From a virus, in the IMG/VR virus record IMGVR_UViG_3300025141_013818, positions 1 through 41,310 of that record: a stretch of DNA of 41,310 bases. One strand, written 5' to 3'. Positions 1,390-36,752 of the stretch are shown piece after piece. A model generated the notes under the pieces. It saw nothing but the letters and a program-made list of their open reading frames with translations, was not told the DNA's origin and ran no database searches. A program made the position numbers and the translations under genes. Numbering within the stretch: position 1 is the first letter of the stretch; every line of letters starts with the position of its first letter.

Positions 1390-1489
1390 AAAGTATCCTC
1401 ATTTGGCCTCCTTGCAATTTCAGGAAATGAAAGAAGAGAATAGCTTAAATGAGGCCGGCGGAGACAAGCGCAAATTACTTCTTGATTGA
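1319..1489 (+). CDS. short helical protein overlapping the upstream gene in another frame
   Basis: The frame could start at a TTG (1277), but the GTG at 1319 is better placed: AAGGAAAAG lies just upstream, giving 56 residues. The product contains EEIEKLQQKENLTLPELFEKYPHLAS, a plausible amphipathic helix followed by a globular-looking stretch that does not resemble a random shadow frame. It overlaps the end of the preceding gene by 71 bp and stops just before the promoter of the RNA element. The alternative is a frameshifted tail of the 1087 gene. No function known. Confidence 0.45.
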   Translation: MGKIAEEIEKLQQKENLTLPELFEKYPHLASLQFQEMKEENSLNEAGGDKRKLLLD

Positions 1490-1510
1490 TTTACCTAGTG
1501 TCCCTATACT
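1482..1510 (+). promoter_or_regulatory. sigma70-like promoter in front of the tRNA-like RNA
   Basis: TTGATT (1482-1487) and TATACT (1505-1510) are separated by 17 bp. They match the consensus -35 and -10 hexamers at 4/6 and 5/6 positions. Transcription would begin near 1517, only a few bases before the 5' acceptor strand of the RNA element at 1521. Confidence 0.5.
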
Positions 1511-1520
1511 CTACGTATGG

Positions 1521-1600
1521 AGGGCAGTATCTCCTCGTTCTTATAAAGCGTAGAAAGAGTATTTGGTAACATATGGGTTCAAGCCCCGTCTGCCCTACCA
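1521..1600 (+). tRNA. tRNA-like RNA with encoded CCA and no recognisable D arm
   Basis: AGGGCAG (1521-1527) pairs perfectly over 7 bp with CTGCCCT (1590-1596), followed by discriminator A and an encoded CCA (1598-1600). The T arm is intact: stem ATGGG/CCCGT (1573-1577 and 1585-1589) around the loop TTCAAGC. The body is abnormal. No D arm with a GG-containing loop can be drawn between 1528 and 1533. The best anticodon arm is the bulged hairpin 1534-1553 with loop CTTATAA, which would give anticodon UAU (Ile, AUA). About 19 nt of unpaired variable region follow. It could be a divergent or degenerate tRNA, a tRNA mimic, or a tRNA altered by rearrangement. An alternative fold pairs ATACTCT (1506-1512) with AGAGTAT (1556-1562). 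It has its own promoter-like sequence upstream. Confidence 0.5.
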
Positions 1601-3178: not shown

Positions 3179-3883
3179 TTAATGCAAAAAGTTCCAAAGT
3201 GTTGTGTAAGTGGGAGATACAGCAATATGGTGAAACCTCGCATGTACAGAATGAATCATACCAACTAATTCGCCATTTGAATTAAGAATTGGAGAACCCG
3301 AAGAGCCTTGGGTTGTTGGTATCGTATAATAGGCTCTCAAGTCAACGTTCGCAGAATAATGCCCCTCAAACAACAATACCATTTCTTTATGAGATATTCC
3401 CAGCGGCGATGCAATATTATAGATTTTGTCTGCATATTCAGGCCTTTTCCCTGCCAGTTTAAGCGGTGGCCCTGTTATTTCTTCACTATATAACAAACAT
3501 ATATCTGAGTTGAAGTCGACTTTCGCCACCTTTCCTTCAAACTCTTTGTTATCTCTATCAACTAACACAAATTTTACTTCATGGCCATGCACTTCCTTTT
3601 GGCCAATTATTTGATTGTTAGAGTTACACACATGCGCAGCAGTTAATATAAAATATTTATTTTTGATTTGTACAATCGCACCTGACGCGGTAGCATAGGG
3701 AATAATGCTTTGCGGCATTATACAGCTGGCCCTCGCACATTCTTCATCAATTAGCATCGCGTCGACCCTAATAAAGGATTTTTTAGCTGTCATCAGCTTC
3801 TTATTGACCTGAGTATTAAACGCACAACTAATTAATAGTGATACAAGAAGCAATAAAGGGATTAGAAATTTAGTTCGAGTCAT
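3179..3883 (-). CDS. trypsin-like serine protease lipoprotein
   Basis: 234 residues and the only clear - strand gene here. The signal peptide ends in lipobox LISC (acylated Cys20). The chymotrypsin-fold triad is visible: His84 in LTAAHVC, Asp127 in NSDICLL and Ser195 in GSSGSPI, with V8/HtrA-like spacing. No PDZ domain is present. It is predicted to be an envelope-anchored protease facing the periplasm or outside. The start has no obvious Shine-Dalgarno sequence. The gene converges on the lipoprotein cassette and diverges from phoH, which suggests an acquired accessory gene. Its substrate is unknown; candidates are surface receptors, competing phage or colicin proteins, or its own virion proteins. 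Confidence 0.8.
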   Translation of the reverse strand: MTRTKFLIPLLLLVSLLISCAFNTQVNKKLMTAKKSFIRVDAMLIDEECARASCIMPQSIIPYATASGAIVQIKNKYFILTAAHVCNSNNQIIGQKEVHGHEVKFVLVDRDNKEFEGKVAKVDFNSDICLLYSEEITGPPLKLAGKRPEYADKIYNIASPLGISHKEMVLLFEGHYSANVDLRAYYTIPTTQGSSGSPILNSNGELVGMIHSVHARFHHIAVSPTYTTLWNFLH

Positions 3884-3888: not shown

Positions 3889-3914
3889 AATTAGTGAGGT
3901 ACAGGAAGCAAATT

Positions 3915-5228
3915 ATGAAAAAAACCTATGTAATTGATACTAATGTGTTTTTAACAAATGCAAATTCAATATTTGAATTCAAAAATAACGATATCGTCGT
4001 CCCCCTCAAAGTCTTGGATGAAATAGATAAACATAAAAAGAGACAAGACGGTGTCGGCCTAAATGCTCGTTCAATAATAAGGATCCTTGATGGCTTAAGA
4101 ACCAGGGGCAACTTACACAAGGGCGTTAGATTAGCTAAGGGCCGCGGCATTATTTATGTTAAGGGTTACGATATAAAAGATGCTCCCGCCGGCTGCGATT
4201 TGAAAAGCGCCGATAACGAGATTATCACGACTGCTATAACAGAGATGAAGGCTAATGAGAGGAGAAGAGTCGTTGTAGTTACGCGAGATATCAATATGCG
4301 AGTCAAGTGTGATTCTTTAGGCATTATAACAGAAGATTATGTGCCCAATAAGATTGTGTCTGATGAAACAAAACTATTTACCGGCTTTGCGAAACATCTA
4401 GTAGACGATCAACTAATAGATCAGTTTTACGAGGGCGAGGAAATAAAATTTGATAAAGAAGAGGTTAAATTCAAGTTTAAACCAAATCAGTTTGTAATGC
4501 TTGTCTCTAATGCGAATGAGAAGAAGACAGCCCTCGCACGCTTTATGAATTATAATATGCCGCTAAAGAAGGTGGTTGAGTTTCAACACGGACTTTGGGG
4601 TTTGCGCCCTCGCAACAAAGAACAAACGTTCGCTTTTGACCTTTTAATGGACAATAATGTGCCAATTGTTACCCTAATAGGCAAGGCGGGGTGTGGTAAG
4701 ACCCTTTTGGCCATCGCCGCTGGTTTAGAGCAAGTAATCGAAACAAAAAAGTACAAAAAGCTGGTTGTTTCGCGTCCGGTCCAGCCCATGGGCAAAGATA
4801 TTGGCTTTCTTCCGGGGACAATGGAAGAAAAAATGAAACCTTGGCTTATGCCTATTCAGGATAATTTAGAATTTTTAATGAATGGTCAGCACAAATCAAT
4901 GGCCATGTTTTTTGAGGATGGGACAATTCAAGTTGAGGCCTTAACATATATAAGAGGTCGCTCGATTAATAATGCGTTCATTATTATTGATGAGGCGCAA
5001 AATTTAACAATTCACGAATTAAAGACTATAATCACTAGGGTGGGTGAAAACACCAAGGTAATATTAACAGGAGATATAGAACAGATTGACAGTATATATT
5101 TAGATGCAACCTCTAACGGACTTTCTCATGCGGTCGAAAAATTAAAGAAATATGAATTAGCCGGCCATATGACCCTGATCAAGGGTGAAAGATCGAAGGT
5201 TGCGACCCTGGCATCAAAAGTTTTATAG
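3915..5228 (+). CDS. phoH: PhoH-family protein with PIN domain (PhoH2 type)
   Basis: 437 residues from ATG 3915, preceded by AGGA; a GTG at 3894 would add 7 poorly supported residues. N-terminal PIN ribonuclease domain (about 1-145) with acidic residues D8 in VIDTNVFL, E36, D100 in SADNEI and D125 in TRDINM. C-terminal PhoH ATPase (about 225-437) with Walker A GKAGCGKT (256-263) and Walker B AFIIIDEAQN (354-363). PIN-PhoH proteins couple RNA unwinding to RNA cleavage in bacteria. PhoH genes are frequent in marine phages, where the role is unresolved despite the link to phosphate in the name. All key residues appear intact. Confidence 0.9.
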   Translation: MKKTYVIDTNVFLTNANSIFEFKNNDIVVPLKVLDEIDKHKKRQDGVGLNARSIIRILDGLRTRGNLHKGVRLAKGRGIIYVKGYDIKDAPAGCDLKSADNEIITTAITEMKANERRRVVVVTRDINMRVKCDSLGIITEDYVPNKIVSDETKLFTGFAKHLVDDQLIDQFYEGEEIKFDKEEVKFKFKPNQFVMLVSNANEKKTALARFMNYNMPLKKVVEFQHGLWGLRPRNKEQTFAFDLLMDNNVPIVTLIGKAGCGKTLLAIAAGLEQVIETKKYKKLVVSRPVQPMGKDIGFLPGTMEEKMKPWLMPIQDNLEFLMNGQHKSMAMFFEDGTIQVEALTYIRGRSINNAFIIIDEAQNLTIHELKTIITRVGENTKVILTGDIEQIDSIYLDATSNGLSHAVEKLKKYELAGHMTLIKGERSKVATLASKVL

Positions 5229-7344: not shown

Positions 7345-8598
7345 ATGAAAGAAAAACTCAAGGTATTGGTCTTGGCGGATCATCCGTATTCGCCGTCTGG
7401 GGTTGGCACCCAAACACGATTCATGGTCGAACACCTCTTGGGAACAGGAGAATATTCGTTTATTTGTTTAGGCGGAGCTGTTAAACACCAGGATTATAAC
7501 CCTCAGAAATTTGAACAGTGGGGAGATAATTTAGTGGTTTATCCTGTTGACGGATATGGCACACAAGAAATGATCAGATCTATTATTAGAACTGAACGTC
7601 CGGACATTTTATGGTTTATGACGGATCCTAGATTCTTTCCTTGGTTGTGGGAGATTGAAGATGAGATTCGCTCATTAATTCCTATGGTTTATTATCATGT
7701 ATGGGACAACAAACCATACCCACATTATAATAAAATCTGGTATGATTCAACTGATCTTGTTGTCTCTATTTCGAAGGTAACACAGGATATTGTTGAGAAC
7801 GTTGCGCCTGATGTAGAATCGATTTACCACCCCCACGCAGTTAATCCTGAATTTTATAAGCCATTGCCAGCGGAAGAGGTTACAGAGCTACGTAACAAAT
7901 CTAATATATCAGATGATAAATTCGTTGTTTTTTGGAATAGCAGAAACGCCAGAAGAAAACAATCAGCAACGCTAATTCATTGGTTTAAAGAATTTCTGGA
8001 TAAAGTAGGTCATGATAAAGCACAATTAATCATGCACACCGAACCTTCTGACCCTAACGGACCAAATCTAGTCGAAAACATCAGCATGCTGGGATTAACA
8101 AATGGAGAGGTTCAATTTTCAACACAAAAATTAGACTTCCCTGAACTGGCTGGATTATATAATATTGCAGATATAACAGTCTGCATATCAGATGCGGAGG
8201 GCTTTGGATTATCTACTTTAGAATCTTTGTCTTGTGGGACCCCAATTATTGTTAATATGACCGGAGGCCTCCAAGAGCAGGTAACTGATGGTGAAAATTG
8301 GTTCGGTGTCGGAATCGAACCTTGTTCAAAAGCGATTATTGGCTCACAAGAGATTCCATATATCTTTGAAGATCGAATTAATAAAGACAAATTTATTGAC
8401 GCTCTCATGAGTTTATATGAGATGAGCAAGGAGGAGCGCCAAGCACTCGGCGCCCAGGGCCTTGAACATGTACTGAAAAATTATAATTTTGAGGAATATG
8501 GTAAGAAATGGGATCAAATACTCAAAGATGTCCACGAGAAACATGGATCTTGGGAGACTCGTAAGAATATTAAAACGTGGGAATTATTAGAGGTTTAA
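7345..8598 (+). CDS. GT-B glycosyltransferase, family 4-like
   Basis: 417 residues. The N-terminal Rossmann half begins KVLVLADHPYSPSGVGTQ. The C-terminal nucleotide-sugar domain has the family-4 E-x7-E motif at E285-E293 (AEGFGLSTLESLSCGTP), followed by GG and a closing amphipathic helix. The enzyme would transfer a sugar from an NDP-sugar to a glycan acceptor in the cytoplasm. It is the first gene of a 13-kb glycan cluster, 3 bp after the nuclease gene and 1 bp before the next glycosyltransferase. Donor and acceptor cannot be predicted. Confidence 0.85.
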   Translation: MKEKLKVLVLADHPYSPSGVGTQTRFMVEHLLGTGEYSFICLGGAVKHQDYNPQKFEQWGDNLVVYPVDGYGTQEMIRSIIRTERPDILWFMTDPRFFPWLWEIEDEIRSLIPMVYYHVWDNKPYPHYNKIWYDSTDLVVSISKVTQDIVENVAPDVESIYHPHAVNPEFYKPLPAEEVTELRNKSNISDDKFVVFWNSRNARRKQSATLIHWFKEFLDKVGHDKAQLIMHTEPSDPNGPNLVENISMLGLTNGEVQFSTQKLDFPELAGLYNIADITVCISDAEGFGLSTLESLSCGTPIIVNMTGGLQEQVTDGENWFGVGIEPCSKAIIGSQEIPYIFEDRINKDKFIDALMSLYEMSKEERQALGAQGLEHVLKNYNFEEYGKKWDQILKDVHEKHGSWETRKNIKTWELLEV

Positions 8599-8599
8599 T

Positions 8600-9865
8600 A
8601 TGAAGAAAGTTTTACTTAAGGGCCCAGTGCTCACACAATCCGGATATGGGCATCACGCAAGAACTGTCTTGCGTGCACTACGCACCAGAGAGGACCTATT
8701 TGACATCTATATACAGCCAATTACTTGGGGTCACACAAGTTGGATGTGGGAAGATAATGAGGAGAGAAAATATATCGACAGTCTCTTAGAGAAGACTATT
8801 AAATATGTTTCAGAGAAAGGAGCATTTGATATATCTTTACAGGTTTCCATTCCTAGTGAATGGGAGAAGATTGCACCTGTTAATATAGGTGTTACTGCTG
8901 GTATTGAAACTACCAAGGTTTCTCCAAAATGGGTTGAAAAGTCTTATCTAATGGATAAGATTCTCACTATTAGTGAACACTCAAAGTTGTCATATGAAAA
9001 TACAGAAGTTGAGGTCATCAATGAGCAGACTGGTGAAAAGGTTAGCGTAAAGGCCAAAGGTCCAATTGAATATGTTTCTTACCCAGTGAGAATATTCGAA
9101 CCAAGCAAAATCGACCTAAACCTTCAAACTGATTTTAATTTTTTGGCAGTGGCTCAACTAAGTCCTCGTAAAAATGTTGATCAATTGATTAAATGTTTTG
9201 TCGACAAGTTTGGTGATAATGAAGATGTAGGCTTAATTATTAAGGCTAATATGGCTAAAAATTCATTAATCGACAGAAAACATACATTAGCTGGTTTTAA
9301 GAGAGCTTTAGAACAATTTAAGGATAGGAAGTGTAAAATTTACCTTTTACATGGATATTTGAATGACAATGAGATGGCTGGTTTATATACTCACTCAAAA
9401 ATTAAAGCGCTTATATCTGCGACTCATGGAGAAGGCTTCGGTTTACCAATTTTTGAAGCAGCATATTATGGCCTTCCTGTAATAGCGACAGACTGGTCTG
9501 GTCATTTAGATTTTCTCTACAAGTCGATGAAACAAAAAAATGGCAAAGTTAAAAAGAAGCATATGTTTTCGAGAATTAGTTATACTCTCGCTCCTGTACA
9601 AGAGGCGGTTGTGTGGGACGGTGTAATAGAGAGGGGCTCTATGTGGGCTCACCCAGAAGAGGGTTCAATCAAAATGAACTTAGAAGAGGTGTATAAAGAT
9701 TACGGCCGGTTCAAGAAAAGGTCAAAAGAGCTTCAGAAATGGGTTTGTGAAGAATTCAATGAAGAAAAACAATATAAGAATTATATAAATTGCCTATCAG
9801 AATGGAGCCCATTTTCATCAGAAGAAATAGATGATTTGTTTAGCGAACTTATGACGGAAGAGTAA
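8600..9865 (+). CDS. GT-B glycosyltransferase, family 4-like
   Basis: 421 residues. Carries QLSPRKNVDQLI at the start of the C-terminal domain and the E-x7-E motif at E278-E286 in GEGFGLPIFEAAYYGLPV. The N-terminal half opens with GPVLTQSGYGHHARTVLRAL, a glycine-rich loop typical of the acceptor domain. The stop overlaps the ATG of the next gene by one base (TAATG). Divergent from its neighbours, so it probably adds a different sugar or linkage. Confidence 0.85.
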   Translation: MKKVLLKGPVLTQSGYGHHARTVLRALRTREDLFDIYIQPITWGHTSWMWEDNEERKYIDSLLEKTIKYVSEKGAFDISLQVSIPSEWEKIAPVNIGVTAGIETTKVSPKWVEKSYLMDKILTISEHSKLSYENTEVEVINEQTGEKVSVKAKGPIEYVSYPVRIFEPSKIDLNLQTDFNFLAVAQLSPRKNVDQLIKCFVDKFGDNEDVGLIIKANMAKNSLIDRKHTLAGFKRALEQFKDRKCKIYLLHGYLNDNEMAGLYTHSKIKALISATHGEGFGLPIFEAAYYGLPVIATDWSGHLDFLYKSMKQKNGKVKKKHMFSRISYTLAPVQEAVVWDGVIERGSMWAHPEEGSIKMNLEEVYKDYGRFKKRSKELQKWVCEEFNEEKQYKNYINCLSEWSPFSSEEIDDLFSELMTEE

Positions 9866-11481
9866 TGATTATATTTATATCTGATTTTTTCTCTGATCAG
9901 GTCACTGGCGGCGCCGAACTAACTACCGACGCCATTATTGAATCATCTCTGTTCCCTGTTAATAAGATATTATCTAAACAGGTTACTTTAGAAGTAATGA
10001 AAAAACACAGAGATGATTTTTGGATATTTGGCAATTTTTCAGGGTTGAACAAAGAAGCTATTGTATATGCTATAAAAAACCTAGATTATTCTATAATAGA
10101 ATATGATTATAAATTTTGTCAATTTAGATCAGTTAAGAAACACATCAAACATGAAGATAAGTGTGAATGCGAAAAAGGGGTTATTGGAAAACTAGTAGCT
10201 TCTTTTTTTGCAAGATCAAAAATGAATTTTTGGATGTCCCAGAAACAATTGGAAATATACCAAGAACGTTTTCCATTTCTGCAACACAATAACACTGTCC
10301 TAAGCTCTGTTTTCTCAGATAAGACCATGGATTATCTAAAAAAGCTAGATACCAGCGATAAAAATGATAAATGGATCATCTTAAAGTCTCCTTCATGGAT
10401 TAAGGGGACGGAAGACGCAATTCATTATGCTGAAAAGGAAAATCTAGACTATGAGCTAGTCTGGGGCCTAGAGCATAAGTATCTTTTGCAAAAATTAGCC
10501 TCTTCAAGGGGCTTAATATTTTTACCTCGTGGTAGAGATACTTGTCCTCGTTTAGTATTAGAAGCTAAAATACTAAATTGTGAGTTAATCCTAAATGATG
10601 AAGTGCAGCATAAAGATGAAGAATGGTTTACTAACAAAAACACAATTATTGAGCATCTTCATACCCGCGGCTCTGTTTTTTGGAGAAAAATAGAAGAAAT
10701 CGCGCCCGATAAGCTTAAAATCACGAAAAATAGCCCAAAAGGCGCCCATAACCTAAAAATCGTTGTTCCGTTCTATAATGCGGAAAAATGGCTCCCAAAG
10801 TGTATAAAGAGCCTAAAAATACAAGATTATGGGCATTTTGAGTGCTTTTTGATCGATGATGTATCCTCTGATGACAGTTATAACGCTGCAAAACGTGCTA
10901 TAGGGCCAGATAAACGCTTTAAACTTGTTAAGAACAAGAAAAAGCGTTATGCTTTAGGAAATATATCTAGAACAATAGAAAAAGCTGATTGCGAGGATAA
11001 CGACATCATTATTTTGATTGATGGTGATGATTGGTTGGCTAGTTCATATAGTTTGTCAACTTTGGCATGCGCTTACGATGAAAAAGATTGTTTGATGACT
11101 TACGGAAACTATGTATACAATCCGACCGGTCAAAGAGGTATAGAGCCATCACAATACCCGGATGAAGTGATAAAAAATAATTTATTTCGCGAAGACACCT
11201 GGCGCGCCTCACATTTGAGGAGTTTTAAGTATTCTTTGTGGAAAAACTTAAATCATGATGATCTTAAAGATGAAGAGGGCAATTATTACGCTATGGCATA
11301 TGATCAGGCTATAATGTTACCTCTTCTGGAAATGGCTTCTACTAGATCAAGATATATTGAAGACACTCTTTATGTTTATAATAAGGACAACCCTATAAAC
11401 GTCGATAAAATAAAAGCTGAGCAACAATACGCCACAGCTCGGAAAATCAGAAAAAAGAAAAAGTATACGGCGGTGCAATGA
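9865..11481 (+). CDS. two-domain glycosyltransferase (GT-B-like plus GT2)
   Basis: 538 residues. Residues 1 to about 290 resemble a GT-B enzyme: an opening ISDFFSDQVTGGAELT, then RGRDTCPRLVLEAKI, but without a clean E-x7-E. From about residue 295 a GT-A family 2 domain starts with LKIVVPFYNAEKWLPKCI, has FLIDDVSSDDSY, and carries the metal/nucleotide motif DGDDWLA at D386-D389. The fusion suggests that two successive sugar additions are carried out by one polypeptide. The end overlaps the next gene by 4 bp (ATGA). Confidence 0.8.
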   Translation: MIIFISDFFSDQVTGGAELTTDAIIESSLFPVNKILSKQVTLEVMKKHRDDFWIFGNFSGLNKEAIVYAIKNLDYSIIEYDYKFCQFRSVKKHIKHEDKCECEKGVIGKLVASFFARSKMNFWMSQKQLEIYQERFPFLQHNNTVLSSVFSDKTMDYLKKLDTSDKNDKWIILKSPSWIKGTEDAIHYAEKENLDYELVWGLEHKYLLQKLASSRGLIFLPRGRDTCPRLVLEAKILNCELILNDEVQHKDEEWFTNKNTIIEHLHTRGSVFWRKIEEIAPDKLKITKNSPKGAHNLKIVVPFYNAEKWLPKCIKSLKIQDYGHFECFLIDDVSSDDSYNAAKRAIGPDKRFKLVKNKKKRYALGNISRTIEKADCEDNDIIILIDGDDWLASSYSLSTLACAYDEKDCLMTYGNYVYNPTGQRGIEPSQYPDEVIKNNLFREDTWRASHLRSFKYSLWKNLNHDDLKDEEGNYYAMAYDQAIMLPLLEMASTRSRYIEDTLYVYNKDNPINVDKIKAEQQYATARKIRKKKKYTAVQ

Positions 11482-12392
11482 ACATACATCTAGAAAATGT
11501 AAATCTACAGAGTACTTCTGGCCCAAACCACTTTGCATCAAAATTAATCAAATATTTAGATGCTACATTTGAATCAGAACAAAAGCCGGATATTAGACTT
11601 TGTTTTATAGAGGCTCATGAACAATATTCCGACGGTATACCTTTAGTCCAGCGTTTAGACGGTATATACTTTAATAAAACACAAAATTATAAGCTTCAAA
11701 ATACGAATATTAGAAGGACCTATAATAACGCCAACGGCGTCATATTCCAAACGAATTTTAATAAAAAATTAATAACGAAATATTTTGGAAATCATAAAAA
11801 TTCAGTTGTTATCCATAATGGAGCAGATACTGAATATATCAAGAATATTAAGCCTTTACAAGACAAAATATTTGATAAATACGAAACTATTTGGTCTTGT
11901 GCCTCTTCGTGGAGACCGCATAAGCGTTTACAAGAAAATATTAAGTATTTTTTGGAGCACTCTTCACCAAAAGACTTATTGGTTATTGCTGGTCATACTG
12001 ATATCGATATTACTAACGACGAAAGAGTAATATATGTCGGCAATTTGAATATTGAACAGCTGATCTCTTTATACAAAAGATCTGACAACTTTATACATTT
12101 GGCATGGCTTGATCACTGTCCTAACGTTGTTGTAGATGCCAGAGCATCTGGGTGTAGAATAATATGTTCCAGCTCTGGAGGGACAAAAGAGATCGCTGGT
12201 TCTGATGCAATAATAATAGAAGAGAACGAGTGGGATTTTCAGCCTGTTGAACTGTATAAGCCACCAAAGCTTAATTTCAGTAGACGAATTAAAAATAAGT
12301 TTGAAAGTGATTACAACATGAAAGTTGTGGCCACAAGGTACAAGAATTTTTTAGAAGAGGTTGTAAATGAAAATTTATACATTAAAAGCTAA
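11478..12392 (+). CDS. GT-B glycosyltransferase, family 4-like (compact)
   Basis: 304 residues, shorter than the usual 350-420. QRLDGIYFN and NGVIFQTNF in the N-terminal half, then VIHNGAD, and a C-terminal LDHCPNVVVDARASGCRIICS followed by GGTKEI. This is the donor-site pattern of family 4, although the first Glu of E-x7-E is replaced by Asp and the second by Asp or Ala. ATGA overlap with the preceding gene and a 26-bp overlap with the next point to translational coupling. Strongly AT-rich codon use. Confidence 0.75.
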   Translation: MNIHLENVNLQSTSGPNHFASKLIKYLDATFESEQKPDIRLCFIEAHEQYSDGIPLVQRLDGIYFNKTQNYKLQNTNIRRTYNNANGVIFQTNFNKKLITKYFGNHKNSVVIHNGADTEYIKNIKPLQDKIFDKYETIWSCASSWRPHKRLQENIKYFLEHSSPKDLLVIAGHTDIDITNDERVIYVGNLNIEQLISLYKRSDNFIHLAWLDHCPNVVVDARASGCRIICSSSGGTKEIAGSDAIIIEENEWDFQPVELYKPPKLNFSRRIKNKFESDYNMKVVATRYKNFLEEVVNENLYIKS

Positions 12393-13281
12393 TGAAAATT
12401 GGATTTGTGATCGATTTGTTGAGGAATGGATAAGATACAATGGCGCTATCCACGAACCAGACCCAAACAAATCAGATATTATTTGGGTATTATCGTCTTG
12501 GCAATGGAGAAATATTCCTTTAAGTTTATTAGCTAATAAGAAAGTTGTAGTTACTATACATCATATTGTGCCTGAAAAACTTAAACAACAGCAATATAAA
12601 AATTTTAAAGAGCTGGAAAAATTTGTTGATGTTTACCACGTTCCAAGCAAAAAAAGTTACAATCAAGTAAAACTGTTTACAACAAAAACAATTAAACAGA
12701 TTCCTTTTTGGGTAAATCAAAATTTATGGTTTCCTTTAAATAAAGAAGATATTAGAGAAAAATATAAATTTAATAAAAATGCATTTTTGATAGGCTCTTT
12801 CCAGAGAGATACAGAAGGAAGTGATTTAAAAAGCCCAAAACTTGAAAAAGGACCAGATTTATTTTGTGATTATGTTGTCGAGGAATCTAGAAAAAGAGAT
12901 AATTTAGAAGTTATTTTAGCCGGCTGGCGCAGGCAATATGTAATCAAACGATTACAGGAGAATAATGTGCCTTTTAAATATTTTGAATTATGTGATTTTC
13001 ATACTTTGAACGACCTATACAATAGCTTAGATTTATATGTAGTTTCTTCTAGATATGAAGGAGGCCCACAAGCTATAGTAGAATGCGCAATAACAAAAAC
13101 TCCGATTATTTCAACAGACGTTGGTTTAGCCTCAAGCATATTATCATCAGAAAGTATTTTTTCACCCGAGGAGGAAGAAGAAGCAAAACCAAATATTGAA
13201 TATGCATATAATAATGTGCTAAAGTATATTATACCTCAAGGGTTTAACGCTTTCGTTGAAATGTTTGAAGAGTTAATATAA
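12367..13281 (+). CDS. GT-B glycosyltransferase, family 4-like
   Basis: 304 residues. The acceptor half includes VVTIHHIVP and VYHVPSK; the donor half includes IGSFQRDTEGSD and the E-x7-E motif in SSRYEGGPQAIVECAITKTP. It starts inside the preceding gene (26-bp overlap) and ends one base before the next ATG. Very AT-rich. Likely a cytoplasmic sugar transferase in the same glycan pathway. Confidence 0.75.
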   Translation: MKIYTLKANENWICDRFVEEWIRYNGAIHEPDPNKSDIIWVLSSWQWRNIPLSLLANKKVVVTIHHIVPEKLKQQQYKNFKELEKFVDVYHVPSKKSYNQVKLFTTKTIKQIPFWVNQNLWFPLNKEDIREKYKFNKNAFLIGSFQRDTEGSDLKSPKLEKGPDLFCDYVVEESRKRDNLEVILAGWRRQYVIKRLQENNVPFKYFELCDFHTLNDLYNSLDLYVVSSRYEGGPQAIVECAITKTPIISTDVGLASSILSSESIFSPEEEEEAKPNIEYAYNNVLKYIIPQGFNAFVEMFEELI

Positions 13282-14205
13282 ATGAAAATATTTTTTAACA
13301 GAAAGCCGGTTGATGGCCCATGGGGCGGAGGAGCAAGCTTTACTAGGAATATGTCAAAATATTTTTTGGATAATGGCCATGAAGTTATCTATGAATTAAA
13401 AAAAGATATTGATTTGATTTTTATGATTGATCCACGACCAAACGAAAATGGGTGTTCTGTAAACGAGATTTTAGATTATAAAAATTATTTTCCAAATACT
13501 AAAGTCTGTCATAGAATTAACGAATGTGACAAACGAAAAAATACTGATTTTATAGATCAGCTTATCTTAAAATCAAACGCCTCAGTAGCAGATATGACCA
13601 TATTTATTAGTGATTGGTTAAAAAAATATTTTATTGAAAAAGGCTTTTCCAAAGATTCAGTTTCCATATACAATGGTTGCAACGGTAATTTTTTCTATAC
13701 TAAAAAGCATGATTTACACGATCGCCCAAGGCTTGTAACCCATCATTGGTCTGATAACTGGATGAAGGGTTTTGACTTATATACAAAAATAGATGAATAT
13801 TTAAGTGAAGATAATGATTTTGAATTTACCTATATAGGAAGATATTACAAAGGATATCGACCAAAAAACACGCGTATTATACAACCTATACACGGGGATC
13901 AACTAGGCGAAGAATTAAGGAAACATGATATTTATGTAACTGCTAGCAGATACGAACCATGTGGAATGCATCATATTGAAGGTTCAGCCTGCGGTCTCCC
14001 AGTTTTATATCATGAAGACGGCGGCGGGATAAACGAGCTTTGCCACAACCATGGTGAGTCTTTTAAAAATTTTGATGATTTTATTGCAGCGCTCAACAAG
14101 GTAAAGAAGCACTATAAAGAATATGTTAATAAAATAAACCATGATTTTCTTCTTGCAGAAAGATGTTGTAAACAGTACTATGAATTTATAAACAAAGGAA
14201 TATAA
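13282..14205 (+). CDS. GT-B glycosyltransferase, family 4-like
   Basis: 307 residues. MKIFFNRKPVDGPWGGGASF gives the N-terminal glycine loop; SIYNGCN and VTHHWSDNWMKGFD mark the domain junction. The E-x7-E motif lies in SRYEPCGMHHIEGSACGLPV, then GGGINEL. This N-terminal signature is also known to me from glycosyltransferases of large DNA viruses and marine phages (recollection, not a search). It abuts genes on both sides with no gap. Confidence 0.75.
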   Translation: MKIFFNRKPVDGPWGGGASFTRNMSKYFLDNGHEVIYELKKDIDLIFMIDPRPNENGCSVNEILDYKNYFPNTKVCHRINECDKRKNTDFIDQLILKSNASVADMTIFISDWLKKYFIEKGFSKDSVSIYNGCNGNFFYTKKHDLHDRPRLVTHHWSDNWMKGFDLYTKIDEYLSEDNDFEFTYIGRYYKGYRPKNTRIIQPIHGDQLGEELRKHDIYVTASRYEPCGMHHIEGSACGLPVLYHEDGGGINELCHNHGESFKNFDDFIAALNKVKKHYKEYVNKINHDFLLAERCCKQYYEFINKGI

Positions 14206-14778
14206 ATGGATGAAGGTGTAATATTAGAAAACATACCAGATAAAAGAGAGAACAAGGGTACTACCAGTTTAAAATTTAAGAAAGATTTAATTGAATTTTA
14301 TAAAGATAAAAACAATGACACAATTATCGAGCTTGGAACCCATTTCGGATATTCTACTAAGGTTCTAAGCCATCTTTTCGAAAATGTTATAACTTTTGAC
14401 AATAACTATGAAAAAACTTGTCTTGCCCGGGCCTTTAATCAAAAAAGAGATAATATAACTTATTTTACTGAAGATGCATATAAATATCATTGGTGGGAAA
14501 CATCTAATCAAGTAAGTGCTGTCTTTATTGACACAGTACATGTATACAACAATGTTGTGATGGACATTGAAAATTGTCTAAAAATTAACAATGAATGTCA
14601 TATAATCTTTGATGATTATGGTATGTTTACAGATGTAAAAAGAGCTGTCGACGAATATATAGAAAATAAAAAACTTGAATTTATAAAATTTATTGGTGAA
14701 CCAGCTGGTTCCGATTGTAGACCTGGTAAAATATTGAAAGATTGGGAGGGAGTCATATGCAAGATAAACCAAAAATAG
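14206..14778 (+). CDS. class I SAM-dependent methyltransferase-like protein
   Basis: 190 residues. Motif I is IIELGTHFGYSTKVL (45-59), followed by an acidic strand end ITFDNN, and later VFIDTVHVYNNVVMDIENC and HIIFDDYG, as in the CmcI/Methyltransf_24 group. Members methylate sugars or small metabolites. A role in capping or modifying the glycan made by the neighbouring transferases is likely by context. Overlaps the next gene by 22 bp. Confidence 0.65.
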   Translation: MDEGVILENIPDKRENKGTTSLKFKKDLIEFYKDKNNDTIIELGTHFGYSTKVLSHLFENVITFDNNYEKTCLARAFNQKRDNITYFTEDAYKYHWWETSNQVSAVFIDTVHVYNNVVMDIENCLKINNECHIIFDDYGMFTDVKRAVDEYIENKKLEFIKFIGEPAGSDCRPGKILKDWEGVICKINQK

Positions 14779-15611
14779 CTATTGTTATGCACGGTCAAGC
14801 TGGAACTTCTAATAAATATGGAACAGGTACCGAATTAGATGTGGAACTATCTTATAAACATTTTAAAAAACATATTTTAGATAAAAACCCTAATGTTGAT
14901 GTTTTCATGCATAGTTGGTCGACTGATAGAAGAGAGAAACTAGTAAATTTATATTCTCCCAAGATTGATTATTTTGAGCCTCAGATTACATTTGATTTTG
15001 AATATACTGTCGGTGATCCCAATGGTCCTGGCGGAGAGATTAGCAAATGGAAAGATGGTAAATTTAAGGGCCTAGATAATTTGAGATTTCATGGACTTTT
15101 CAGCAGGTGGTACTCGGCTAAAATGGCCAATGAACTTAGATTGATTAATCAATGTCAAAACAATTTTGTTTATGATTATGTTATGTTAACTAGATATGAT
15201 TTAGCATATGTTGAAGATTTTGATTTTTCTAGTTTTGACACAGGGAAGTTTTATGCAATTCCGCCGATAAGTCATCACGGAATTCAAGATTTATGGTTTA
15301 TAGGATCTGACAAAGATATGACTTTGCTTTGTCAGATGTATGATTGGATTAAAAAAATAAATCATTTTCCGCATAAATTTACACACAGTCATTGGTTGAC
15401 ATTAAAATTTATAAACAATGTTGGTTTAGATGAAAAATTAGATTTTTTTGGTAGCGAAAGACCATGGGGTCAGGGTCCCGTGGGCGCCAAACTAGGTCCA
15501 AGTCCTTTAGTGAGAGACCATTATAACATTGCTGAAAAGACGCCTGATTCTGCCATGGGTGAAGTTAGAAACAAATTAAGACAAATTAGTGAAAGAAAGA
15601 TAACTTGGTAA
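14757..15611 (+). CDS. putative glycan-biosynthesis protein, GT-like
   Basis: 284 residues from ATG 14757, chosen because GGGAGGGAG lies just upstream; the frame extends to 14742. Opens IAIVMHGQAGTSNKYG and has VDVFMHSWSTD and YDYVMLTRYDLAYVEDFDF. The strand plus RYDL motif recalls GT-A-like proteins of capsule and LPS loci, where it sits near the nucleotide site. Further on, HHGIQDLWFIGSDKDM. No firm family. The position inside the glycan island makes a transferase role likely. Confidence 0.5.
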   Translation: MQDKPKIAIVMHGQAGTSNKYGTGTELDVELSYKHFKKHILDKNPNVDVFMHSWSTDRREKLVNLYSPKIDYFEPQITFDFEYTVGDPNGPGGEISKWKDGKFKGLDNLRFHGLFSRWYSAKMANELRLINQCQNNFVYDYVMLTRYDLAYVEDFDFSSFDTGKFYAIPPISHHGIQDLWFIGSDKDMTLLCQMYDWIKKINHFPHKFTHSHWLTLKFINNVGLDEKLDFFGSERPWGQGPVGAKLGPSPLVRDHYNIAEKTPDSAMGEVRNKLRQISERKITW

Positions 15612-15628
15612 ATAAAAGGAGATTTAAA

Positions 15629-15685
15629 TTGAACAAGCCGCACATGACTGAAAGAGAAATTGATTTTTTTACAGGCAAGGTATGA
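15629..15685 (+). CDS. possible 18-residue minigene before the HAD-cupin gene
   Basis: A TTG start 7 bp after a strong AAAAGGAG (15614-15621) opens an 18-residue frame ending in EIDFFTGKV. Its TGA overlaps the next ATG (ATGA). The good ribosome site and coupling suggest it is translated, perhaps only to feed ribosomes to the next gene. It may be what is left of a deleted gene. Confidence 0.35.
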   Translation: MNKPHMTEREIDFFTGKV

Positions 15686-16386
15686 AAATGAACAACATAA
15701 AACACAAAACAATTTTTTGCGATATAGACGGTACTCTAATTAAACATTTCGGCGACCAAACTAAACAAATAAAAGAAAAACCTGTATTGCTTGATGGAAC
15801 AATAGAGAAGCTCAACAGTTGGGATAGGCAGGGATATAGAATAATTTTAGTTACTGGCCGTCGAGAAAGTACAAGAAAAATCACTAAAAAGCAGCTTAAT
15901 CAACTAGGGATATTTTATGATAAGTTGATAATGGGTCTTTCTGGCGCTGAAAGAGTATTAATAAATGATAGGAAATCTGATGGCCGCAATACTGCACATG
16001 CTTTTAATATCGACAGAAATTTTGGTATTAGGAATATAGATCTAAATGAGAATACTCGTCCATGGGGTAGTTATGAAACACTACTAGATTCTACTGAATG
16101 TAAAGTAAAAAAGATTATTATCAAACCAGGTCAACAGCCAAGCTATCAGTACCACAATAAGAGATCAGAATGCTGGGTAGTCACGCAAGGCCATGGTTTA
16201 GTTACGTTAAACGGAGAAGAAAATGAAGTTCAACCTGGATCAATTATAGAAGTACCCGCTGGCGCCAAACACAGAATAAAAAATATTGATAAAAATAAAG
16301 ATTTGGTTTTTATTGAGGTGCAAACTGGAACTTATTTTGGAGAAGATGATATTGTAAGACTTGAGGATCAATATGACAGAGACTAG
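15682..16386 (+). CDS. HAD phosphatase fused to a type II phosphomannose-isomerase cupin
   Basis: 234 residues. The N-terminal HAD part carries the nucleophile motif CDIDGTL (D14, D16), the motif LVTGRRES and the acidic motif INDRKSDGRN. The C-terminal cupin part starts with NTRPWGSYETLL (about 120) and has KPGQQPSYQYHNKRSECWVV, PGSIIEVPAGAKHRI and GEDDIVRLEDQYDR. These last elements are typical of the C-terminal isomerase domain of PMI/GDP-mannose pyrophosphorylase enzymes. The fusion could interconvert hexose phosphates and remove phosphate in one protein. It overlaps the next gene by 14 bp, which places it in the sugar-precursor step of the island. Confidence 0.8.
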   Translation: MKMNNIKHKTIFCDIDGTLIKHFGDQTKQIKEKPVLLDGTIEKLNSWDRQGYRIILVTGRRESTRKITKKQLNQLGIFYDKLIMGLSGAERVLINDRKSDGRNTAHAFNIDRNFGIRNIDLNENTRPWGSYETLLDSTECKVKKIIIKPGQQPSYQYHNKRSECWVVTQGHGLVTLNGEENEVQPGSIIEVPAGAKHRIKNIDKNKDLVFIEVQTGTYFGEDDIVRLEDQYDRD

Positions 16387-17950
16387 TGTTTTAATTACAA
16401 CTAGTGGTATTGGAAGCCGTCTTGGAAACATTACTGAGTATACAAACAAGTGTTTAGTAAGAGTAGGTGATAAGCCAGCGATATCTTATATTATTGAAAA
16501 TTATCCCCAAGATACACAATTTATTGTAACTCTTGGCTACTATGGCTACCATGTGCGCAGCTTTTTAGAAATTGCATACCCAGGCAAGAATTTTACTTTT
16601 ATTGAGGTTGATAATTATAGCGGCCCAGGAAGTAGTCTTTGTTACTCTATTTTGCAGGCTAAAGATGTTTTACAGAGACCTTTTATATATCATGCATGTG
16701 ACACAATAGTACAGGAGCCGTCGCCTGATTTAAACAATAATTGGTGCGCAGGGTTTAAAAAAGGTTTGGGATCTCAATATCGAAGTTTAAACGTTGTTAA
16801 TAATTGCGTTAGCAAGATTAACGATAAAGGAGAGATACACTACGATTTTGATTATATTGGCCTGTGTGGTATAAGAGATTATGAACTATTTTGGCAAAAA
16901 ATAGAAGAACTATATGCAACAGACCACTTAGACTCACAACTATCAGATTGTGACGTTATCAATCTAATGCTTGAGACGGTTAGCTTTAAACATATGGAGT
17001 TTAAAAATTGGTTAGATATAGGAAACGTAGATAGCCTCGAAACAGCTAGAAGCAAGATAGAAAATACATTCGACGTGTTAAACAAAGTTGATGAATCAAT
17101 TTTTTTAGTTGAAAACCATATTATTAAATTTTTTCATAACGAAGAGATGTGCGCAAATAGAATATTTCGTGGGCGTCAGTTAGAGGGCCTTGCACCCTCA
17201 ATAGTTTCTTATAAAAATAATTTTTATAAATACAAATACGTGGAAGGAGAATTATGTGCCACGATAGCTAATCGATCAAATTTTGATGAACTTTTAAATT
17301 GGGCATCTAACAATCTATGGAAGCCTAATTCTAAAAAAGATATATCGAATTTATGCGAGAATTTCTATTTTGAAAAAACCTATAAAAGGATAAACGATTT
17401 TTTTAACAAAACCAATGATCAGGACAAGACAACGACAATTAATAATTTAGTGATACCTCCAATATTTGAAGTGATAAAAAAAATTGACAAAGAATGGCTT
17501 TGCAACGCAAAACCATATCAGTTCCACGGAGATTTTATATTAGATAATATAATAAAAACTAAAGAAGGATTTTGCCTTTTAGATTGGAGGCAGGACTTTG
17601 GTGGAGATCTAAAATCGGGAGACATATATTATGATTTAGCAAAACTAGGCCACAATCTAGTTCTAAACCATGAAAATATAAAAAATAATCATTTTACGAT
17701 AGAAAATCATAATGGCGAAATTACATGCGATATATTAATAAATTTTAGATTACTCGAATGTCAAAAAACATTTCAGACCTTCTTGACTGAAAATAATTTT
17801 GATGTAGAAAAAGTGAACGTTCTGACTTCGCTTATTTGGCTAAACATGTCGGCGTTACATGAACATCCTTTAGATAAATTTCTATTTTACTTTGGAAAAT
17901 ATAATCTAGCTGTTAATTTGAGAGAAATACAAAATGAAATCAGAGAATAA
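16373..17950 (+). CDS. sugar or choline nucleotidyltransferase fused to a choline/aminoglycoside-kinase-like domain
   Basis: 525 residues from ATG 16373 (GAGGA 5 bp upstream; a TTG lies at 16361). Residues 1 to about 230 form a nucleotidyltransferase: SVLITTSGIGSRLGN with the G-x-G-x-R loop, K26 in NKCLVRVGDKPAI, and HACDTI for the metal site. Residues from about 240 onward form an APH/choline-kinase fold, with HGDFILDNII (H385, D387, N392) and LLDWRQDFGGD as catalytic and metal-binding motifs, then YYDLAKL. The order resembles LicC (CTP:phosphocholine cytidylyltransferase) joined to LicA (choline kinase). Both steps for activating a small alcohol or sugar would be on one chain. Substrate not determined. 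Confidence 0.75.
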   Translation: MTETSVLITTSGIGSRLGNITEYTNKCLVRVGDKPAISYIIENYPQDTQFIVTLGYYGYHVRSFLEIAYPGKNFTFIEVDNYSGPGSSLCYSILQAKDVLQRPFIYHACDTIVQEPSPDLNNNWCAGFKKGLGSQYRSLNVVNNCVSKINDKGEIHYDFDYIGLCGIRDYELFWQKIEELYATDHLDSQLSDCDVINLMLETVSFKHMEFKNWLDIGNVDSLETARSKIENTFDVLNKVDESIFLVENHIIKFFHNEEMCANRIFRGRQLEGLAPSIVSYKNNFYKYKYVEGELCATIANRSNFDELLNWASNNLWKPNSKKDISNLCENFYFEKTYKRINDFFNKTNDQDKTTTINNLVIPPIFEVIKKIDKEWLCNAKPYQFHGDFILDNIIKTKEGFCLLDWRQDFGGDLKSGDIYYDLAKLGHNLVLNHENIKNNHFTIENHNGEITCDILINFRLLECQKTFQTFLTENNFDVEKVNVLTSLIWLNMSALHEHPLDKFLFYFGKYNLAVNLREIQNEIRE

Positions 17951-18953
17951 AACCAATATTTATATTGGACCAATGTCTAAAAACATAGTCGATTCAGTAA
18001 TACAATATTGTAGTGATAACGATACACAAATTGGTTTAATTCCTTCTAGAAGACAAGTTGAATACAACGGAGGCTATGTTAATAACTGGAAAACAAAAGA
18101 ATTTGCTTCCTATATTCAGTCAAAAACTTCCAAAGTCAAGATTCAACGCGACCACGGAGGTAGATTACAGGGAAATGGAAGCACCGACTTTTTAAAATCA
18201 TATGAAGAGGACGCTTTGTCTAATTTTGATTTAATACATATCGATCCATGGAAAAAATTTGTTGATATAGAAGAGATGATAGAAGAAACAGCTAAAAATA
18301 TAGAATTATGTTATTCTGTTAACCCTGAATGTTATTACGAAGTAGGAACAGAAGAAGCCATACATGGGTACACAGCGAATGAACTAAACTATTTCTTATC
18401 CGGCTTAAAAGATAGATTAGAACTTTTATGGAAAAAGATAAAATTCGCAGTTATCCAATCAGGTACAAGAATAATAGGAACTGAAAATACAGGTATATTT
18501 GATGCCAAAAAATGTAAAAAAATGATTGATGTCTGCCGGCACCATGGTATCATGTCTAAAGAGCATAACGGAGATTATCTTAGTCTACAAGGCGTTAAAA
18601 CTAGATTTGGTTTAGGATTAGACGGGATTAATATCGCGCCGCAATTTGGAGTTTCGGAAACAAAAATAATAGTTGAAGAGTTAAAGAAGAACAAACAAGG
18701 AGAATTATTAAATAATTTTTTTGATTTATGTTATTATAGTAATAAATGGAGAAAATGGTTGAGAAAAGATATCCAAGTTAATAAAAATACAAAAGATTTA
18801 ATCCTTGCTGTAAGTGGCCATTATGTTTTTGCAGATCCAAATTTTATATCTATAAAACAAAATATTGATAATATTGATGAAAAAATTATAATGGTCCATA
18901 AAAAAATGATACAAAATTTAATTCCTGTTTCTTGCCCAGGAATAAAATATTGA
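17934..18953 (+). CDS. TIM-barrel aldolase-like protein (GatZ/KbaZ-like?)
   Basis: 339 residues, overlapping the previous gene by 17 bp. NIYIGPMSKNIVD and IGLIPSRRQVEY near the start, then KIQRDHGGRLQG, DLIHIDPWKKF, CYYEVGTEEAIHGYT, FAVIQSGTRIIGTENTG and IMSKEHNGDYLS. Repeated strand-loop units with acidic or His tips suggest a TIM barrel related to tagatose-bisphosphate aldolase subunits or other class II sugar aldolases. Its place between a nucleotidyltransferase-kinase and an FkbM methyltransferase points to making a precursor for the glycan. Family assignment is tentative. Confidence 0.45.
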   Translation: MKSENKTNIYIGPMSKNIVDSVIQYCSDNDTQIGLIPSRRQVEYNGGYVNNWKTKEFASYIQSKTSKVKIQRDHGGRLQGNGSTDFLKSYEEDALSNFDLIHIDPWKKFVDIEEMIEETAKNIELCYSVNPECYYEVGTEEAIHGYTANELNYFLSGLKDRLELLWKKIKFAVIQSGTRIIGTENTGIFDAKKCKKMIDVCRHHGIMSKEHNGDYLSLQGVKTRFGLGLDGINIAPQFGVSETKIIVEELKKNKQGELLNNFFDLCYYSNKWRKWLRKDIQVNKNTKDLILAVSGHYVFADPNFISIKQNIDNIDEKIIMVHKKMIQNLIPVSCPGIKY

Positions 18954-19555
18954 AACATAAAGTAAGATTAAAAGATAATACCTACTTTAATATTGATATT
19001 GAGACAGGTGATTATATTATAGACTGTGGAGCAAACGTTGGTAATATTACTGAATATTTTCAATCTCTCGGAGCAATTGTAATAGCTTTCGAGCCTAATA
19101 AATTTGCTTTTGATATTTTACAAGAAAGATTTAAGAATAATAAAAGAGTAAAATGCGTGCAAAAGGGTGTTTCTGGCAAAAAAGGTACAGGTACTAAGAA
19201 ATTGTTTCTTCATGAAAGAGCAAAAGAAAACCAAATTTTATGGTCTACTGGCTCTTCTATAATAAAAGATAAAGGCAACGTAAATGAACATGATTATATA
19301 GACGTAGAAATGGTAGATTTGTGCGCATTTTTAAAATTTCTTAAAAGAGAAGTGAAAGTGTTAAAAATTGATATCGAAGGCGCCGAAGTTGAATTGTTAA
19401 ACGATCTAATGGATGAGGGTTTATTACGAAAGATACCTTATATTTTTGTGGAAACGCACGAAGAAAAGGCACCTTCTCTTTATGACACAACTAAAAAGCT
19501 TAAACAAAGAATAAAAGATGAAAATTATTCAAATATAAATTTGAATTGGATATAA
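18950..19555 (+). CDS. FkbM-family methyltransferase
   Basis: 201 residues from TTG 18950, which has AGGA 7 bp upstream and overlaps the preceding stop (TTGA); a longer TTG start lies at 18932. DYIIDCGANVGNITEYF is motif I, IVIAFEPNKFAFDIL carries the acidic ribose-binding end, VKVLKIDIEGAEVELL is the FkbM signature, and IFVETHEEK follows. The family O-methylates sugars and polyketides. Here it would methylate the surface glycan. Confidence 0.8.
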   Translation: MKHKVRLKDNTYFNIDIETGDYIIDCGANVGNITEYFQSLGAIVIAFEPNKFAFDILQERFKNNKRVKCVQKGVSGKKGTGTKKLFLHERAKENQILWSTGSSIIKDKGNVNEHDYIDVEMVDLCAFLKFLKREVKVLKIDIEGAEVELLNDLMDEGLLRKIPYIFVETHEEKAPSLYDTTKKLKQRIKDENYSNINLNWI

Positions 19556-36374: not shown

Positions 36375-36752
36375 ATGAACGGAATAGGGCCAGAACTACC
36401 GCTTAACAGAGATCATCGTTTTGGACTATTTTCTCTAATTACCAATTATAGGGATGAAGTAAGGCAAAATTTTAAAAATTTACTTCTTACCGCACCCGGA
36501 GAGCGCGTGATGATACCAGACTTCGGCGTAGGACTTAGGCACTTTTTGTTCGAACCATCTCCTCAAGCAATTCCTGGAATAAGACAAAGGATAAGTTCGC
36601 AAGTAGCAAAATTTATGCCGTATATAAAAATCAATAAACTGCAATTTAATTCAAGCAAAGATTCACATGCTTTATCCATATTCATTGAATTTGATGTGCC
36701 AAGTATTAACCTTTCAACTTCTATGGTCCTTCAGTCCGAGGATGTTAACTAA
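36375..36752 (+). CDS. baseplate wedge protein, gp25-like
   Basis: 125 residues, preceded by AAGGAG. FGLFSLITNYRDEVRQNF, LLLTAPGERVMIPDFGVGLR and FLFEP are the GPW/gp25 family core, including the T-x-x-G-E-R and PDFG turns. Family members (T4 gp25, P2 gpW, T6SS TssE) form part of the wedge that nucleates the sheath. Followed after 2 bp by the gp6-like gene, the usual pairing. Confidence 0.9.
   Translation: MNGIGPELPLNRDHRFGLFSLITNYRDEVRQNFKNLLLTAPGERVMIPDFGVGLRHFLFEPSPQAIPGIRQRISSQVAKFMPYIKINKLQFNSSKDSHALSIFIEFDVPSINLSTSMVLQSEDVN

Follow-up and report, generated by a model that had tools for sequence, protein, structure and literature searches.

The window analysed in this study comprises 41,310 nt of viral DNA (IMG/VR record IMGVR_UViG_3300025141_013818, positions 1-41,310, one strand), and its positions 1521-1600 (+) hold a putative tRNA gene of unusual layout. 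The 5′ strand of the acceptor stem (AGGGCAG, 1521-1527) pairs at 7/7 positions with the 3′ strand (CTGCCCT), which together with the discriminator A73 occupies 1590-1597, and an encoded CCA end, read from the sequence, follows at 1598-1600. Behind the 5′ strand lie TAT (1528-1530), representing U8, A9 and one further nucleotide, then CTC (1531-1533), a further CT, and an anticodon arm (CGTT-CTTATAA-AGCG, 1536-1550) whose UAU anticodon at 1542-1544 reads AUA (Ile), a codon that this phage uses 28.8 times per 1000 codons. The anticodon stem (CGUU/AGCG) has four pairs, one of them U-G, and closes a standard 7-nt loop (CUUAUAA) with U33. Next come the linker TAGAAA (1551-1556), GAG (1557-1559), which is the partner of CTC, and the segment TATTTGGTAACAT (1560-1572; family columns 40-52), followed by the T arm (ATGGG-TTCAAGC-CCCGT, 1573-1589) with 5/5 stem pairs, one U-G.

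The 7-bp acceptor stem, the T arm with its conserved loop and the 7-nt anticodon loop with U33 are those of a canonical tRNA. What this RNA does not have is a D arm between the acceptor and anticodon arms: the 8 nt separating the two stems can form no hairpin and have their pairing partners 3′ of the anticodon arm. A sequence-only reading of the locus had noted the perfect acceptor stem, the T arm, the encoded CCA and the absence of a conventional D arm, and all of these hold. Its UAU anticodon is likewise correct, whereas the bulge that it placed in the anticodon arm is not, as CGUU pairs with AGCG without one.

Standard tRNA detection and the upstream region

Standard models find no normal cloverleaf at this locus. 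ARAGORN called 0 tRNAs on the window, and Rfam RF00005 scored 25.4 bits against 1521-1597, under its gathering score of 29. The Rfam gathering scan of the window returned no tmRNA or other curated family, the sub-threshold tRNA-like match being to RF00005 only. A few relatives exceed the RF00005 cut-off (32-34 bits; 3 of about 20 loci pass). Explanations as a tRNA fragment, an attP site or a tmRNA were dropped, the acceptor stem covarying and no tmRNA match being found.

Upstream, promoter-like boxes (TTGATT-17 nt-TATACT, 1482-1510, +; 9/12 matches) are present as previously remarked. As a promoter starting transcription a few nucleotides before the tRNA they are only suggestive, because such sites are common locally, with 16 found in the region versus 6.5 expected.

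A family of virus-encoded relatives

An exact 20-mer from the window matched no other viral contig, and degenerate core patterns were therefore required; the plasmid collection gave no match to the window copy. The first relative, in bajarodcaudo virus 1, is unannotated and lies within a tRNA gene array; its acceptor stem differs and is still paired at 7/7 positions. A degenerate core pattern with the anticodon left free recovered at least 120 viral contigs, and further patterns added more. Among 84,980 bacterial and archaeal genomes scanned, 8 contigs matched, all of them from MAGs. The resulting family is 80 nt long and nearly ungapped, counts at least 285 distinct sequences and is found in phage tRNA clusters. 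In its covariance model, members score above 85 bits and canonical tRNAs mostly below 26 and always below 32; the few intermediates at 44-47 bits look like further subtypes or damaged copies.

Some individual copies deserve mention. The RNA at L103:3190-3274 (-) resembles tRNA-Ile(UAU) but is divergent, scoring 46.8 bits with model R1 and 35.8 bits with RF00005. Its stretch ahead of the T arm is longer, it adjoins a standard GAU member of the family, and it is probably another subtype. A shortened GAU copy of 67 nt (L072:5165-5231), missing some of the D-loop region and some of the acceptor, stands beside two intact copies (GAU and UAU) and looks like a decaying duplicate. The otherwise different RNAs of loci L015 and L127 have in common an odd T loop, ATCATTC, which is not TTCRANN. 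On a 176-kb Prevotellaceae MAG contig, a tRNA-Ile(UAU) of this type (L124:5255-5334, -) lies between an ORF for a 943-aa beta-galactosidase-like protein and an AAA ATPase matching phage family phrog_4339, and may mark a prophage edge or be a rare host copy.

The window RNA is not a chance structure, and the proof of this is comparative. Its single-sequence folding stability is ordinary for its composition (z = -1.2), and chance was therefore judged by comparison with homologues. When 47 diverse homologues are compared, pairing is kept in 97.4% of pair cells and two-sided changes occur in 17/19 pairs, giving a covariation score of 0.820 versus 0.204 for shuffled alignments and at most 0.185 for slid partners. 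All seven acceptor pairs and the four pairs of the anticodon stem covary, and RNAalifold independently yields the same helices. In a mutual information analysis of 285 distinct sequences (Neff 127), helix pairs rank highest, and the top pairs outside helices are 23-47, 42-52, 23-77 and 47-77. Homologues keep the acceptor and T arm pairing through compensatory changes, and the RNA is tRNA-related, as had been proposed. Outside the helices, TAT is found in 283/285 distinct members, and the linker reads T-N-GAAA in all members of what we call type I, a constancy to be read with the fact that this motif doubled as a search seed. Other subtypes have different linkers in its place.

A D-stem equivalent around the anticodon arm and a proposed relocated D loop

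A 3-bp helix formed by columns 11-13 and 37-39 encloses the anticodon arm, and we regard it as the equivalent of the D stem. The two strands (CTC 1531-1533 and GAG 1557-1559 in the window) covary, the variants being CTC/GAG, CCC/GGG, ACC/GGT, CGC/GCG, GCC/GGC, CAC/GTG, TCC/GGA and AAC/GTT. Between the 3′ strand of this helix and the T arm runs the motif U-A-R-N-N-G-G-N-N-N-C-A-Y, which can be read as a D loop comprising A14, R15, 16/17, G18, G19 and 20, with its last base as position 48. U8 and A41 never vary, which is what a U8-A14 pair would call for. Columns 42 and 52 are A-U in 103 and G-C in 15 cases versus 8 crossed (p = 1e-12), counted in sets in which the search had fixed neither base, and this covariation is of the Levitt type, like that of R15-Y48 in ordinary tRNAs. 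A contact between G18G19 and the T loop is presumed rather than read from covariation, because near-invariant bases cannot covary.

In the window, the corresponding positions are 1561 (A14-like), 1562 (R15), 1565-1566 (G18G19-like), 1567 (U20-like) and 1572 (Y48-like). The window member has a T at 1562 (column 42), and its own Levitt pair is for this reason an atypical T-T.

Given the D-loop motif and the 42-52 covariation, it is the order of the parts that has changed: the D-stem 5′ strand is followed by the anticodon arm, the D-stem 3′ strand, the D loop and the T arm. The 19-22 nt behind the anticodon arm, which had been left as an unexplained tail, are accounted for as the second strand of the D stem plus the relocated D loop. 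We refer to RNAs with this order as relocated tRNAs.

Anticodons and amino acid identity

A scan by topology alone, which ignored both the anticodon and the base following GG, yielded 319 distinct sequences from 4.45 Mb of fetched loci and 0 matches in reversed, complemented and shuffled controls. Their anticodons belong to Ile in 224 and to Arg in 95 cases, with no others; the two synthetases concerned, IleRS and ArgRS, are both of subclass Ia. The Ile-box anticodons are UAU (139), GAU (74) and CAU (11), and those for Arg are ACG (43), UCU (32), CCU (14), UCG (4) and CCG (2). Position 20, which follows GG, carries U in 224/224 Ile and A in 95/95 Arg members, figures that carry a bias in that two seed patterns fixed U after GG for part of the Ile set; two others did not, and of the patterns leaving this base free one gave 48 U and 2 G, the other only A. 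The discriminator is A in every Ile member and G, A or T (5 members) in the Arg class. A dedicated search for anticodons combining A35 with a base other than U at 36 gave no match, so that this core was not encountered with Leu, Phe or Val identity.

These bases match what is known of synthetase recognition. A20 is the main determinant of E. coli ArgRS, Arg identity depending also on C35 and A/G73, and the identity elements for Ile are the anticodon, the discriminator and D-loop bases including D20 (PMC9976931; also PMC8318970). From these published sets, the family carries the anticodon and A73 in its Ile members and A20, C35 and A/G73 in its Arg members, bar the five with T73.

Genomic context and phage range

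Relocated tRNAs sit within tRNA arrays, for instance between tRNA-Trp and tRNA-Met in Kehishuvirus tikkala. Three whole contigs have canonical tRNAs for 19 amino acids with only Ile missing: G001 (62 kb, 32 canonical tRNAs) and G002 (28 kb, 29) each carry a relocated GAU, and G003 (128.5 kb, 24) carries both UAU and GAU. Where a canonical tRNA-Ile is present, the relocated tRNA mostly supplies the other anticodon, being complementary in this sense at 14 + 18 loci and not at 2 + 4 (p = 4e-5; table [14,2],[4,18], with loci deduplicated and not fully independent). Streptomyces phage EGole and Kehishuvirus tikkala, for example, each pair a canonical UAU with a relocated GAU. Because some loci have the same anticodon in both kinds of tRNA (2 UAU/UAU, 4 GAU/GAU), gap filling is not universal. 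In the 41-kb window the relocated tRNA is the sole tRNA found, and the evidence for gap filling comes from other phages.

Type I is carried by Streptomyces phages related to EGole, Samisti12 and Yaboi, by crAss-like phages and by a 462-kb uncultured phage. Its members are nearly always without annotation and were once labelled tRNA-Leu. Both identities can occur together, as in Streptomyces phage Yaboi, where Ile(GAU) and Arg(CCU) are each of the relocated type. A second subtype (type II) is a tRNA-Arg(UCU) with the linker A...CGUUAACC, found in E. coli phages phi92, inny, 121Q and Bas93, in Klebsiella phage Sugarland and in a Felixounavirus. At least 80% of the type II query is covered by 233 phage records, and its E. 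coli-phage version is absent from the 5,426 E. coli genomes searched. The host named in the inny record is E. coli K-12 MG1655. Linkers beyond types I and II exist and are rarer.

Two observations on annotation may be added. In phi92, 121Q, Felixounavirus VpaE1 and inny, the tRNA-Arg(UCU) is either unannotated or labelled 'tRNA', 'tRNA-OTHER' or tRNA-Leu. At L144:1455-1816 (-), a tmRNA gene (RF00023, 57.9 bits) adjoins a relocated tRNA-Ile, and the annotation of Yaboi also includes a tmRNA.

Discussion

In this study, we describe a locus at 1521-1600 that very probably encodes a functional elongator tRNA-Ile of the phage (UAU, codon AUA), folded otherwise than as a cloverleaf and with its D loop transposed. 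It belongs to a large family of Ile and Arg tRNAs encoded by viruses, most of them unannotated, and from the sequences compared here bacterial viruses appear to translate with this relocated-D-loop fold. Direct support comes from the covariation of the helices, the Levitt-type covariation of columns 42 and 52, the restriction to Ile and Arg, the association with position 20 and the complementarity with canonical tRNAs.

Other readings of the same RNA were weighed. The sequence-only reading had considered a mimic or decoy. Such an RNA would be processed like a tRNA but would occupy host enzymes, nucleases or T-box leaders and not translate, a role that would suit a non-standard fold whose processing signals (acceptor and T arm) are intact. 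Yet nothing would oblige a mimic to preserve U33, an intact anticodon, A37, position 20 and the discriminator in accord with Ile or Arg identity, or to carry anticodons that complement the other tRNAs of the same phage. The anticodon, position 20 and the discriminator in fact co-vary as charging by IleRS or ArgRS requires, and the anticodons fill canonical gaps; we consider a decoy highly improbable. The same reading had also offered a truncated tRNA, and we weighed a degenerate pseudogene or a tRNA fragment, for example an attachment site, as well. The ARAGORN miss and the score below the Rfam cut-off would be expected of such a remnant, but it is refuted because the helices covary: compensatory changes are seen in all of them, and the structure is kept over hundreds of distinct phage sequences. 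The handful of matches among bacterial and archaeal genomes is also unlike the expectation for a host fragment, and we give this explanation practically no weight.

An RNA that is functional and truly D-armless, like mitochondrial tRNA-Ser, with the GG stretch forming a long variable region that does not reach the T loop, is in our view improbable. The conventional D arm is indeed missing, and D-armless tRNAs are charged and used in mitochondria, with an artificial one functioning in E. coli (PMC7609411, PMC11551756). Against this, the near-invariant GG, the U-A-R motif and the Levitt-type 42-52 covariation point to a working D loop, and every Arg member has A after GG, where ArgRS expects A20. 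In D-armless mitochondrial tRNAs the functions of D stem and D loop are absent, whereas here a D-stem equivalent and a D-loop motif are conserved with covariation.

How a functional relocated tRNA might work can be outlined from its layout. Most likely it would be transcribed together with the phage tRNA array or close to it; in the window, the weakly supported promoter-like boxes may serve it separately. It would then be trimmed and charged by host IleRS, Arg members being charged by ArgRS. In the D stem, the 5′ strand would run directly into the anticodon arm and the 3′ strand would follow the arm, so as to form one long bulged anticodon/D helix in place of the coaxial D/anticodon stack of an ordinary tRNA. 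The elbow would be rebuilt from the D loop in the variable region, immediately 5′ of the T arm. We infer an overall L shape along with transcription, processing, charging and ribosomal use, the last of which would increase the Ile and Arg tRNA supply of the infected cell or make it complete.

The relation to known tRNAs can be stated in some detail. With canonical bacterial tRNA-Ile and tRNA-Arg (RF00005), the relocated type has in common the 7-bp acceptor stem, the T arm with a TTCRA loop, the 7-nt anticodon loop, U33, A37, the identity bases at the discriminator and position 20, the equivalents of G18G19 and R15-Y48, and residence in phage tRNA arrays. It differs in that its D stem encloses the anticodon arm and its D loop comes after that arm, and in being mostly missed by ARAGORN and under the Rfam cut-off. 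D-armless mt-tRNAs, such as mammalian mt-tRNA-Ser(AGY) and those of nematodes, are mitochondrial and shortened, whereas the phage type belongs to bacterial viruses, is 80 nt long and retains its D-stem equivalent and D-loop motif elsewhere in the molecule. The artificial D-armless mini HisT of E. coli (PMC11551756) is likewise a non-cloverleaf tRNA in a bacterial translation system; mini HisT is, however, engineered with the whole D arm deleted, while the phage type is natural and keeps the D-loop functions. tRNA-Sec and allo-tRNAs are also natural tRNAs, with unusual stem lengths, but their parts follow one another as acceptor, D arm, anticodon arm, variable region and T arm, a succession that is changed in the phage type.

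A review of non-canonical natural tRNAs makes no mention of phages or viruses (PMC7609411), and a 2024 paper in NAR describes all known bacterial tRNAs as cloverleaf (PMC11551756). In the part of the journal literature that was searched, we found no account of the relocated-D-loop fold; an earlier description may exist. If relocated tRNAs are charged and used, the statement that all known bacterial tRNAs are cloverleaf would be wrong for infected cells. Phage tRNA inventories, in which many genomes appear to be without Ile or Arg, would have to be revised, and standard tRNA finders would need a new model. The family would also be a natural system for testing which features of a tRNA are required by synthetases, EF-Tu and the ribosome, and a new scaffold for orthogonal tRNAs. 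Since cultured phages carry unannotated members, a direct test is possible.

Why such a fold should exist is a matter on which we can offer only tentative views. Compatible with a functional relocated tRNA, but rather doubtful, is selection of the fold for escape from host factors of defence, decay or toxin systems that read or cut canonical tRNA-Ile and tRNA-Arg. The virus-confined distribution and the presence of two identities only would fit, and tRNAs are known targets of phage defence (PMC12851939); known anticodon nucleases, however, read the anticodon loop, which is conventional in relocated tRNAs. As a conjecture that we would not call probable, we suggest that the family represents a second natural topology of cytosolic-type tRNA, near-confined to bacterial viruses and to the two subclass Ia identities Ile and Arg. 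In it, a D loop 3′ of the anticodon arm would keep the L shape and the identity elements, and the arrangement would have been selected for resistance to a host activity that recognises ordinary tRNA-Ile or tRNA-Arg.

Additional observations in the window

Other parts of the window have features of their own. An ORF at 3179-3883 (-) has a lipoprotein-like signal and a trypsin-like GSSGSP motif and adjoins a PhoH-like gene (3894-5228). Judged by eye from the translations, ORFs resembling glycosyltransferases, methyltransferases and nucleotidyltransferases form a long series over 7345-19555, and their number is unusually high for a fragment of a phage. One 3025-aa ORF spans 27287-36364, just upstream of a gp25-like baseplate wedge gene (36375-36752).
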